From the IMG/VR virus record IMGVR_UViG_3300020452_000254, positions 1 through 64,000 of that record: a stretch of 64,000 bases of DNA. One strand, written 5' to 3'. Within the stretch, counting starts at the first letter, position 1, and each line of letters begins with the position of its first letter. This DNA comes from a virus. The translations under genes and the position numbers were made by a program. This document shows, one piece after another, positions 1,569 to 57,323 of this stretch. The notes under the pieces are model-generated. The model saw only the letters and a list, made by a program, of their open reading frames with translations. It searched no databases and had not been told where the DNA came from.

Positions 1569-3239
1569 TTAAGGCCAGGGTTTGTTCAAATCACCATCCC
1601 ATGTAGAGACTGGTCTAGTCGAAGGTCGAGTAGAAGGTCTAGTACTTGGTCTAGTTGATGGTCTCGTTGATGGACGAGTCAAAGTCACCTCATAAGAAGT
1701 AGGTCTAGATATAGTCTGTTCAAAGTTAGCAGGTCTATTAATAGTCACCTCATAAGAAGTTGGTCTAGGTATAGTTACCTCATATGTTGTAGGTCTATTA
1801 ATTGTCTGTTCAAAGTTAGCAGGTCTATTAATTGTCTGTTCAAAGTTAGCAGGTCTGTTAATAGTGACCTCATAACTTGTAGGTCTAGGTGTCTGATAAT
1901 TAGTTGGTCTAGGTATAGTTACCTCATAGTTAGCAGGTCTATTAATTGTCTGTTCATATGAACCAGGCCTTGGTATAGTCTGTTCATATGTTGGTGGTCT
2001 ATAGTTCTGAGTTTGATAATACTGAGGTCTATAACCAGTTGACTGTGTTTGATAATATTGTGGTCTATAACCTGTACCTTGTGTCTGGAAATATTGAGGT
2101 CTATATCCAGTAGTTTGATAATTAGTAGGTCTAGGTATACTCACCTCATAAGAAGTTGGTCTAGGTATAGTTACCTCGTATGTTGGTGGTCTATAGTTCT
2201 GAGTCTGGAAGTACTGTGGTCTATATCCAGTTGTTTGGAAATACTGTGGTCTACTTCCAGTTGTCTGATAATAATTAGGTAAATTACCCCATGGCCCATT
2301 TGGATTATAAATTGGGTTGAAACTAGTAGGTGTATTTGCTAACTGAGCAGATGGTACTTGAGAATACCCAGCACCATATCCAAACTTAGGATGTCCACCT
2401 TGATATGACTGTACTTGATATGCACCAGGCCTATAATTCTGTATCTGATATGTTGGTGGTCTATAGTTTTGTATCTGATATGAAGGTGGTCTATAGTTTT
2501 GTGTTTGATAATATTGTGGTCTAGGTATAGTTTGTTCATAACTAGCAGGTCTAGGTATAGTTTGTTCATAACTAGAGGGTCTAGAATTCTGTATCTGGTA
2601 TGAAGGTGGTCTATAATTCTGTATCTGATAATTATAACTTGGTGGTCTATAGTTTTGAGCTTGGAAATTATAACTTGGTGGTCTATAGTTCTGTGTTTGG
2701 AAATACTGTGGTCTACCTATAGTTACCTCATATGAAGTAGGTCTATTAATAGTCACCTCATAAGAAGTTGGTCTAGGTATAGTTTGTTCATAGTTAGCAG
2801 GTCTACTATTTTGCAACTGTGCTGGTCTTGGTATTGTTTGTTCATAAGTTGTAGGTCTAGGTATAGTTACCTCATATGTTGTAGGTCTAGGTATAGTTAC
2901 TTCATAACTAGAAGGTCTGTTAATTGTTTGTTCAAAGTTAGCAGGTCTATTAATTGTCTGTTCATATGAAGTAGGTCTAGGTATAGTTACTTCATAACTA
3001 GAAGGTCTGTTAATAGTAGACTCATATGGTTGCTGAAAAGGTTGTTGGAAAGGTTGCTGAAAAGGTTGTTGGAAACTTTGCTGAAAAGGTTGTTGAACCT
3101 GTATAGTCCCTGTTTGAAATTCCCATCCTGTAGGAGTTTTCCTTTTTACATCAACTACTTTTTTCCAGCCAGAAGGAGTCTTGACTCTCCATCCTGTAGT
3201 CTCTTTCCATCCGCCTGGAGTTTTTACTTTTGAACTCAT
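1569..3239 (-). CDS. Arg-Pro-Tyr repeat protein, probable fibre/appendage
   Basis: A 556-residue low-complexity protein. Residues 1-45 hold three copies of a K-TP-GW-type motif (KTPGGW, KTPSGW, KTPTGW). A Gln/Phe-rich stretch (QQPFQQ repeats) follows, and then some 40 near-tandem units of about 10 residues of the form RPxxYEVTIP / RPxxYEQTIN / RPxYFQTQNY. The end is RPST repeated five times. The pattern predicts an extended, non-globular rod or a disordered chain rich in Arg, Pro and Tyr. GAGGAAA upstream of the ATG is a good ribosome-binding site. The position in the fibre cluster favours a virion surface protein. I know no exact family. Confidence 0.8.
   Translation of the reverse strand: MSSKVKTPGGWKETTGWRVKTPSGWKKVVDVKRKTPTGWEFQTGTIQVQQPFQQSFQQPFQQPFQQPFQQPYESTINRPSSYEVTIPRPTSYEQTINRPANFEQTINRPSSYEVTIPRPTTYEVTIPRPTTYEQTIPRPAQLQNSRPANYEQTIPRPTSYEVTINRPTSYEVTIGRPQYFQTQNYRPPSYNFQAQNYRPPSYNYQIQNYRPPSYQIQNSRPSSYEQTIPRPASYEQTIPRPQYYQTQNYRPPSYQIQNYRPPTYQIQNYRPGAYQVQSYQGGHPKFGYGAGYSQVPSAQLANTPTSFNPIYNPNGPWGNLPNYYQTTGSRPQYFQTTGYRPQYFQTQNYRPPTYEVTIPRPTSYEVSIPRPTNYQTTGYRPQYFQTQGTGYRPQYYQTQSTGYRPQYYQTQNYRPPTYEQTIPRPGSYEQTINRPANYEVTIPRPTNYQTPRPTSYEVTINRPANFEQTINRPANFEQTINRPTTYEVTIPRPTSYEVTINRPANFEQTISRPTSYEVTLTRPSTRPSTRPSTRPSTRPSTRPVSTWDGDLNKPWP
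1620..3090 (-). repeat. About 30-bp imperfect tandem repeats in coding DNA
   Basis: The plus strand shows endlessly varied copies of blocks such as tataacctcat-like and aggtctaggtatag units, with a period near 30 bp and frequent 33-bp variants. They encode the RPxxY repeats. Copies differ at synonymous and non-synonymous sites, so the array can recombine and change length. Confidence 0.85.
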
Positions 3240-36801: not shown

Positions 36802-36809
36802 TATTTATA
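36802..36809 (-). promoter_or_regulatory. Late promoter box for gp48 operon
   Basis: An exact TATAAATA on the minus strand, 37 nt ahead of the gp48 ATG. It shares a base with the gp4 ATG. It mirrors the plus-strand box at 36765-36772. Confidence 0.7.
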
Positions 36810-37240
36810 TGAGTTACAAGGGAAGATTTAAACCAAAACAATATAAAAAGTATAAAGGTGACCCTACGAAGATTGTTTATCGTTCTATGTGGGAGTTAAG
36901 GTTTATGAAATATTGTGATAAGACTCCTAGCATATTAGAATGGTCTAGTGAAGAGATTGTAATACCCTATCGTGGATTAGATAAAAAGATTCATCGTTAT
37001 TTCCCAGACTTCTGGATAAAATATAAAAATGCTCAAGGTAATATTCTATGTGAAGTTATAGAAGTAAAACCTAAAAGACAAACACAAAGACCTATCAAGA
37101 AAAATAAACCTTATGGTAAATACTTAAAAGAATCAAGAACTTATGGTATTAATCAATTAAAGTGGGAAGCTGCAAGAGAATATTGCAAAGATAGAAACTA
37201 CAAATTTAGAATACTAACAGAAGACCATCTTGTTAAATAA
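36809..37240 (+). CDS. 4: Head completion nuclease gp4
   Basis: A 143-residue homologue of T4 gp4 (150 residues), the head-completion protein with a nuclease fold. Visible features are KGDPTKIVYRSMWELRFMKYCD (with the catalytic-type Glu), ILEWSSEEIVIPY, HRYFPDFWIKY (Asp), and EVIEVKPKRQ, the E-x-K element of PD-(D/E)XK enzymes. In T4 it acts on packaged DNA ends when tails join heads. AAGG lies just upstream of the ATG. It is the first gene of the only plus-strand operon. Confidence 0.9.
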   Translation: MSYKGRFKPKQYKKYKGDPTKIVYRSMWELRFMKYCDKTPSILEWSSEEIVIPYRGLDKKIHRYFPDFWIKYKNAQGNILCEVIEVKPKRQTQRPIKKNKPYGKYLKESRTYGINQLKWEAAREYCKDRNYKFRILTEDHLVK

Positions 37241-37376
37241 ACGAAACCCCAAGTCCTTCTAACTCTTCAGCAGGTAACTTGGGGTCTCTGGGTTAGGTCT
37301 GTTATCTCACAATCGTTATTTGTTTTTGACTCCATTTTTCAGGCAAGGGAACGACACCTCGACTTTCCTAACTTAC
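37236..37376 (-). ncRNA. Candidate phage small RNA
   Basis: This is a region with no ORF on the minus strand, framed by a strong host-type promoter (37383-37412) and an intrinsic terminator (37243-37285), predicting a transcript of about 140 nt. It can fold: GTTAGG (37372-37367) pairs with CCTAAC (37297-37292), and inside it GTCGTT (37355-37350) pairs with AACGAT (37317-37312). The terminator stem follows. It is antisense only to the last few codons of gp4. It matches no RNA family I can recognise. Confidence 0.6.
37243..37285 (-). terminator. Intrinsic terminator of the candidate sRNA
   Basis: ACCCCAAGT (minus strand 37285-37277) and ACTTGGGGT (37254-37246) form a perfect 9-bp stem; a further 3 bp can form inside it. 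It is followed on the minus strand by TTTCGTTTATTT. On the plus strand there is no T tract, so it is directional. Confidence 0.65.
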
Positions 37377-37382
37377 AAATGT

Positions 37383-37412
37383 ATTATAACAAATTATGTA
37401 CCTACCTGTCAA
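37383..37412 (-). promoter_or_regulatory. Sigma70-type promoter for candidate sRNA
   Basis: TTGACA (37412-37407), an 18-nt spacer and TATAAT (37388-37383): both hexamers are perfect. The spacer begins GGTAGGTACA, shared with other early promoters here. It faces away from every nearby protein gene. Confidence 0.75.
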
Positions 37413-37417
37413 TGTGG

Positions 37418-37425
37418 TATAAATA
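37418..37425 (+). promoter_or_regulatory. Late promoter box, 5 nt from ATG
   Basis: The plus strand reads TATAAATA-CATGT-ATG. The downstream gene has no Shine-Dalgarno sequence, so a leaderless mRNA is predicted. Confidence 0.6.
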
Positions 37426-37430
37426 CATGT

Positions 37431-38015
37431 ATGGCAGGTAAACTATTTGATAAATTAGAAAGAGAAGCATTTCGTGGTGGTATCCAAGCTAGAACTAAGG
37501 AGTCCATGAGATGGTTTCGTACTCGTGTAGCTCAAATAAAAGGTGTAAGTAGACAAGAACTGTTAAGAGATGCAAAGACTAGAAAGAGACAAATCTTTGG
37601 TGACATGTATATGTACATGTATGACCCAAAACATAAAAAAACCTTACCTTACTATGATAGGTTTCCATTGTGTATACCAGTAGAACCTGCTAAAGGTGGA
37701 TTTTATGGATTGAATCTGCATTATCTACCACATACATTACGAGCACAGTTTTTAGATGCATTGTATAATACAACAAATAACGATAAATATGATGCAACAA
37801 CAAGATTTAAATTAACATATCAATTGTTAAAAGGTATCAGTGGTAAACCTTATTATAAAGCATGTTATAAACATTACCTCTCATCTAATGTAAGAAGTGC
37901 ATTTGCAAAAGTAGATAGTGCAGACTGGGAAATTGCAATCTTCTTACCAATAGAATCATTTAAAAAGGCAAGTGTTGGAACAGTCTGGAAAGAAAGTAGG
38001 AAAAAAGTCGTATGA
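37431..38015 (+). CDS. gp2-like (DNA end protector) candidate
   Basis: A 194-residue protein starting MAGKLFDKLEREAFRGGI. The conserved block DMYMYMYDPKHKKTLPYYDR...FPLCIPVEPAKGGFYGLNLHYLP and the end WEIAIFLPIESF are shared, as I recall, with proteins annotated as DNA end protector (gp2) beside gp4 in marine T4-like phages. I cannot confirm homology to T4 gp2 itself. The longer ORF from 37320 is rejected because its added residues are composition noise across a promoter. The gene overlaps the next by 4 nt. Confidence 0.65.
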   Translation: MAGKLFDKLEREAFRGGIQARTKESMRWFRTRVAQIKGVSRQELLRDAKTRKRQIFGDMYMYMYDPKHKKTLPYYDRFPLCIPVEPAKGGFYGLNLHYLPHTLRAQFLDALYNTTNNDKYDATTRFKLTYQLLKGISGKPYYKACYKHYLSSNVRSAFAKVDSADWEIAIFLPIESFKKASVGTVWKESRKKVV

Positions 38016-48892: not shown

Positions 48893-48920
48893 ATTATACC
48901 TTGTTAAACATATATGTCAA
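48893..48920 (-). promoter_or_regulatory. Sigma70-type promoter, 6 nt from ATG
   Basis: TTGACA (48920-48915), a 16-nt spacer and TATAAT (48898-48893), both perfect. They lie over the last codons of the upstream oxygenase. The -10 ends 6 nt before the downstream ATG. Confidence 0.55.
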
Positions 48921-57293: not shown

Positions 57294-57323
57294 ATTCTAC
57301 TATAACTTGTACCTATCTGTCAA
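57294..57323 (-). promoter_or_regulatory. Sigma70-type promoter
   Basis: TTGACA (57323-57318), an 18-nt spacer beginning GATAGGTACA and TAGAAT (57299-57294). It shares the GATAGGTACA block with the promoters at 37383 and 58468. Confidence 0.6.

Follow-up and report, generated by a model that had tools for sequence, protein, structure and literature searches.

In the 64-kb window analysed here, taken from an IMG/VR virus record of 75.6 kb and bearing T4-like structural genes, the minus strand between the genes for gp4 and gp2 carries a conserved domain that is almost certainly a structured RNA and that, judging by its sequence, very probably forms in this phage a stand-alone RNA gene with a predicted product of ~140 nt. 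The domain is a new phage RNA family, absent from Rfam 15, distinct in its fold and unusual in its modular use, structured phage RNAs of unknown function being already a known kind (PMC12286853, PMC9004378). The complete statement that we put forward, that this ~140-nt structured RNA gene is transcribed early by the host RNA polymerase and that its product serves in trans as a decoy or scaffold, is much more tentative, and we give it somewhat less than an even chance. The earlier note had named the interval a candidate small RNA; a structured non-coding RNA gene is now strongly supported by the conserved promoter, by the identity of the domain between close relatives and by the covariation of its helices, all of them read from sequence.

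Table 1. Features of the gp4/gp2 interval and its borders (positions in the window).
Feature	Position	Strand	Remarks
gp4 head-completion protein gene	36809..37240	+	PF08722 (TnsA-like/head-completion family); left boundary of cargo site
P6 hairpin GAGACCCCAAGU/ACUUGGGGUUUC	37243..37288	-	U-rich tail runs into gp4 stop codon
Conserved RNA domain P1-P5 (predicted)	37280..37376	-	Covariance model R2 match, 96.2 bits, E 1.2e-19
P1 3' strand CCUAAC	37292..37297	-	Pairs with GUUAGG 37367..37372
P4 GUC/GAU and P5 ACAA/UUGU	37304..37330	-	Loop L5 AACGA 37317-37313 contacts L2
P3 hairpin CC/GG	37332..37343	-	Loop UGAAAAAU 37341-37334, most conserved exposed segment
P2 hairpin CGAGG/CCUUG	37344..37361	-	Loop L2 GUCGUU 37355-37350
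P1 5' strand GUUAGG	37367..37372	-	Partner 37292-37297 CCUAAC
Early-type promoter	37383..37412	-	TTGACA 37412-37407, TATAAT 37388-37383; 12/12 consensus
T4-type late promoter TATAAATA	37418-37425	+	Directly before gp2 ATG
gp2 DNA-end protector gene	37431..38015	+	Similar to annotated gp2; right boundary of cargo site

The perfect minus-strand TTGACA-N18-TATAAT promoter to which the earlier note had drawn attention is indeed present and is kept in the same-site homologues, with a conserved GGTAGGTACAT block in its 18-nt spacer and a TG preceding its -10 box. Perfect promoters of this kind number four in the window, versus a mean of 0.175 and a maximum of 1 in 200 Markov simulations, and the same promoter stands at the gp4/gp2 site in relatives with the small RNA, a large RNA or small-protein genes. 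Its -10 box places the predicted transcription start at ~37376, the first base of the conserved domain. Two near copies of its TTGACAnnTAGGTACA block lie at 57323 and 58497 (minus strand), directly before ORFs, which places the RNA promoter in the phage's own class of early promoters. That the RNA is made early, as had been supposed, is a reasonable expectation for a promoter of host sigma-70 type, near copies of which serve other genes of the phage and, in relatives, the PNKP gene. The orientation first described also stands: the RNA is read against the late operon, with gp4 and gp2 on the plus strand and the late promoter abutting the gp2 start codon. This late promoter ends 5 nt before the ATG (window 37418-37433), which implies a nearly leaderless late gp2 mRNA, and the arrangement recurs in close relatives that carry a cargo between the two genes. 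Early-type promoters directly before ORFs were further seen at 48920, 57323 and 58497 of the window (all minus), the latter two having a TAGGTACA spacer block in common with the RNA promoter.

The RNA running from 37376 to 37225 is predicted to fold at -39.2 kcal/mol, which is more stable than its shuffles (z = -2.4), into a cloverleaf-like architecture in which P1, continued inwards by the pairs 37363/37301 and 37362/37302, closes a junction of P2, P3 and P4/P5. The two stems that had been proposed as nested both pair, but only in part as proposed: GTTAGG/CCTAAC is P1, whereas GTCGTT/AACGAT (37355-37350 / 37317-37312) is not nested within it as a helix and is better taken as a loop-loop (kissing) contact, because GTCGTT sits in the loop of a separate covarying hairpin. 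The absence of an ORF holds for minus-strand frames of at least 30 aa; a 22-codon ORF, MESKTNNDCEITDLTQRPQVTC, is present, and it is not conserved, since the same frame stops after 5 codons in the relative L003. The interval thus has what is expected of a small RNA gene, namely its own promoter, a defined conserved structure and no conserved ORF, its 3' end being a predicted one.

Pattern scans of IMG/VR together with covariance searches yielded 26 representative loci with 25 distinct versions of the domain, all of them in marine T4-like phages close to pelagimyophages, and each of the 12 confidently matching records holds exactly one copy. Covariation among these relatives supports the P1-P5 fold. 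In a plain MAFFT alignment of the first 11 sequences, built without structure (A1), 10 pairs show two-sided changes, a number reached in 0 of 500 shuffles. The alignment of the 25 distinct rows (A4) has two-sided changes in 14 of 24 pairs (76 cells; 0 of 500 shuffles reach this) and a covariation score of 0.364, versus 0.140 when shuffled and at most 0.071 with slid partners, although alignments built with a covariance model lean towards their own structure, as A1 does not. Particularly for P1, the window's GUUAGG/CCUAAC falls in the same MAFFT columns as the helix AUAGUUU/AAACUAU of L003; L003 and L087 keep the register with different letters, and 9 of the 12 P1 pairs change on both sides. 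P2 is paired in 100% of cells, with two-sided changes in two pairs, and the middle pair of P4 is A-U, U-A or C-G across the family. P3, invariant in the first sequence set, has one covarying pair in A4; its CC/GG becomes CCU/AGG in L216-L219 (a paired U-A insertion) and ACU/AGU in L213, and its loop UGAAAnAU is nearly constant while the helix letters vary.

The kissing contact covaries as well: L2/L5 reads UCGUU/AACGA in the window, UCGUG/CACGA in L156, UCGC/GCGA in L169, UCACU/AGUGA in L172 and L153, and UAGUC/GACGA, with one A-G mismatch, in L162 and L213. It is imperfect in some relatives, with an A-G mismatch also in L158 and three pairs only in L163. Shuffling of letters reaches the observed total of L2-L5 complementarity in 0 of 2000 trials; swapping L5 among rows gives totals as high in 15 of 2000, because many of the loops are similar. 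Between the window and its relative L012 the domain is 97.9% identical, versus 84.9% for gp2 DNA, 71.6% for gp2 third codon positions, ~78% for the slice of gp4 that was compared and 47% for the P6 loop region; the excess over gp2 indicates that the window domain is under selection and is not a decaying relic.

Of the directional terminator with a 9-bp stem that the earlier note placed at the end of the RNA, the stem is there (ACCCCAAGT/ACTTGGGGT, 37246-37254 / 37277-37285) and extends on the minus strand to 12 pairs, but we prefer to regard it as a conserved structural helix, P6. Its apical region of 22 nt and its tail GUUUAUUUAAC (GUUUAUUU) make it other than a textbook terminator, and it was not listed by our consensus terminator scan, which admits loops of at most 8. 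The letters of P6 change in pairs between relatives, and the other subtype has GAGAUUUG/CAAGUCUC or GAGAGUCG/CGACUCUC in its place. Most relatives have, 3' of P6, a canonical terminator distinct from it, which argues for the structural reading; the window and L012 have none, and there P6 with its U-rich tail may double as terminator. Conservation in relatives, which the earlier note had also put at stake, is found for the promoter and the stems, P6 included as a helix, whereas the terminator is mostly a separate element.

The gp4 and gp2 proteins of the window resemble those of marine cyanophages and of Pelagibacter phage HTVC008M. Among 80 gp2 relatives, the closest have between these two genes either a gap of 19 bp or a cargo on the minus strand that follows the same promoter: the small RNA (window, L012, L003), small-protein genes (L013, L014, L016, L017, L029-L035) or ~950 nt of non-coding sequence (L002, L018, L024-L028, L036-L044). 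The interchangeable cargoes behind one promoter mark the gp4/gp2 gap as an exchange site with a fixed promoter. The small early proteins encoded there have 108 aa (MRYHENYQEIEKNF...) and 85-88 aa (MNKTLIKELSKIKTPEQL...). The cargo of L021 (minus, about 2751-3003) is again preceded by this promoter and is a different short non-coding, RNA-like segment, in which a GAAGGTTCGCAACCTTC hairpin and two terminator-like hairpins occur.

Across its loci the domain ends three kinds of transcript, with an early promoter of one class in all three contexts wherever it is visible: (i) At the gp4/gp2 site of the window, L012 and L003, and at another place in the distant L213, an early promoter serves the domain alone. 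(ii) In 19 loci it is preceded by a gene for a PNKP 3'-phosphatase (PF25109), starting at the stop codon or a few nt past it; all 18 of these loci that extend far enough have the domain convergent with gp23, and in 9 of the 9 inspected a promoter of the early class immediately precedes the ATG of the phosphatase gene. (iii) It follows the ~950-nt RNA as the final or nearly final module, at the gp4/gp2 site (L002, L028, L082, L091) or beside gp23 (L084, L098, L104, L106). The two RNAs are separable, since L128 and L129 have the large RNA and a terminator without the domain. The PNKP-phosphatase gene itself starts ~6-9 nt after its own -10 box (L087, L165, L153 and others), giving a nearly leaderless early mRNA.

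Covariance models of Rfam 15 gave no family above the gathering threshold in the window or its relatives; the matches at E<=10 were sub-threshold (DLEU2_4, 14.7 of 40 bits; algC leader, 13.5 of 33.8). ARAGORN found no tRNA or tmRNA in the window or eight relatives, nor did Rfam models match one, blastn of the RNA against isolate phages returned chance matches only, and the 8 exact matches of a core 18-mer in bacterial genomes had no RNA context in any case. By the major capsid protein of a relative (gp23 of L087) the closest isolates are Methylophilales phage Melnitz (67%), HTVC008M (64.5%) and Mosig (63%), in which a search with model R2 gave no convincing copy; the best match (E 0.105, Mosig) lies inside an annotated coding sequence and lacks the helices. 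These isolates belong to the same phage group and likewise have non-coding RNA genes behind early promoters. The pelagimyophage group to which they belong has a two-piece tmRNA with a glutamine riboswitch beside it (PMC9004378), and, unlike that tmRNA, the window RNA has no Rfam match to tmRNA, glnA or Downstream-peptide models. GOLLD and ROOL are large, highly structured phage-borne RNAs of unknown function (PMC12286853), a likeness that concerns mainly the ~950-nt RNA; the window RNA has ~140 nt, and neither model matches its domain.

Two further comparisons are structural ones. The window RNA shares with purine-riboswitch-type junctions a closing helix and two hairpins joined by loop-loop kissing; it differs by the extra P3 hairpin, by an unrelated core and by having no downstream gene to control. 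The packaging pRNA of phi29 is likewise a small, branched phage RNA with complementary loops, encoded near virion genes; it differs in that its loops pair between molecules, and the window RNA matches it neither in sequence nor in helix order; we know of no use of RNA in T4-like packaging. The PNKP-linked copies are similar to the 3'UTR-derived small RNAs of bacteria and phages, being placed in a 3'UTR just before a terminator, whereas the window copy has its own promoter.

How might such an RNA act? We propose that the host RNA polymerase would transcribe a compact RNA of ~140 nt from the early promoter, in which P2, P3 and P4/P5 would be enclosed by P1, L2 would pair with L5 and P6 would follow. 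The kissing contact might then hold the P3 loop exposed on a rigid surface that a host or phage protein, or the ribosome, could bind, and the RNA may serve as a decoy or scaffold, not by antisense pairing. That it acts in trans by way of a bound partner is the reading that we favour, tentatively and at clearly less than even odds: at two unrelated sites (the gp4/gp2 site of the window, L012 and L003; the site in L213) the domain stands alone behind a promoter of its own, which suggests that the RNA itself acts and is not a mere tag, and a near-constant P3 loop on a rigid frame suits a bound partner better than antisense pairing. The main rival, to which we give a lesser though real probability, is that the domain is a portable cis-acting 3'-end module, which would protect early transcripts from 3'-to-5' decay or define their 3' end, the window copy being a relic without payload. 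It owes this rank to the domain's ending another transcript in two of the three contexts; the majority of copies, being PNKP-linked, lie in 3' untranslated regions, which would allow a role in cis, the domain is last or near-last before the terminator in every context (PNKP mRNA, ~950-nt RNA, nothing), and its compact fold with a kissing contact is reminiscent of decay-resistant RNAs. However, at the two unrelated sites where the domain stands alone behind a strong promoter there is nothing for it to protect, the window copy is too well conserved beside gp2 for a relic in decay, and L128 and L129 do without the domain behind their large RNA.

Pairing of the exposed P3 loop and its flanks with host or phage mRNAs, as a trans-acting antisense RNA of the kind that the earlier note had in effect suggested, is in our judgement unlikely, even though the invariant loop could serve as a base-pairing seed against a host RNA, and even though the early promoter, the small size, the constant loop and the precedent of phage-encoded and 3'UTR-derived sRNAs (PMC12197685; PMC13250501) speak for it. 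The rigid, heavily paired fold exposes a loop of only about 8 nt, the nearly invariant 15-nt segment finds no complementary site better than 12 of 15 in a search of the window, and a partner that stays constant accounts better than fast-changing targets for conservation among diverged phages. A riboswitch-like orphan aptamer for a metabolite, with the junction and kissing loops arranged around the constant segment, would account for a topology that resembles junctional aptamers with loop-loop contacts, and glutamine riboswitches do lie beside the tmRNA gene in related phages (PMC9004378); but a riboswitch is sought in the 5' leader of the gene it regulates, whereas the domain lies downstream of genes, never upstream, and is followed by a terminator on its own strand and a convergent gene, and no Rfam riboswitch model matches at E<=10 other than the sub-threshold algC leader, all of which makes this reading improbable. 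Least credible of all, and barely worth entertaining, is an antisense leader whose read-through would interfere with gp4 and whose structure would be incidental: the window's terminator is weak and the RNA runs towards gp4, but the domain covaries and is conserved at unrelated sites, and relatives have strong terminators before gp4 or gp23.

Because the domain occurs by itself in some phages and closes unrelated early transcripts in others, the choice between a stabiliser and an RNA with a job of its own is directly testable. The phages concerned are close to ones that infect bacteria among the most abundant in the sea, and their non-coding RNAs are almost wholly unexplored; the family offers a precise structure, an exactly predicted start and a covariance model for searches of isolates and metatranscriptomes. 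Taking the cargoes together, we suggest, again with reserve, that marine T4-like phages have an undescribed modular RNA system, in which a cargo site with a fixed early promoter is loaded with interchangeable RNA modules (the kissing-loop domain, the ~950-nt ornate RNA and small hairpins) that would act on the host early as structured RNAs, not as messages or antisense RNAs.

The analysis of the small RNA led to a second, much larger one, resembling a new ornate class. Predicted non-coding RNAs of ~950 nt with their own early promoter lie in L002 (1945-2905, minus), L084 (4700-5702), L018, L024, L028, L036, L041, L044, L098 and L128. Of 257 predicted pairs, 24 have two-sided changes; no stop-free frame exceeds 82 codons in any of the six frames, no Rfam family matches at E<=10, GOLLD and ROOL included, and blastn against isolate phages returned matches to a tRNA T-arm and to terminators only. 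Possibly it is a new class of large ornate phage RNA. It contains a T-arm-like GGTTCGAATCC hairpin, and GGATTCGAC- and TTCGAATCC-like strings led us to consider a tmRNA, a reading that finds no support from ARAGORN or Rfam; RNase P was rejected as well, strings like it (GGAAAGTC ... ACAGA) being present in some relatives only and absent in L003. The modules 3' of the large RNA are interchangeable: L128 has none, L018, L024, L041 and L044 have a GACGATTG..CATCGTC hairpin, L036 has this hairpin and another closed module, L002 has the window-type domain and L091 has the domain with the hairpin. Finally, the flanking sequence of L212 (= L162) at 1501-1592 is a chimera, in which a segment like the large RNA's 5' domain precedes the domain of window type and the middle is missing.
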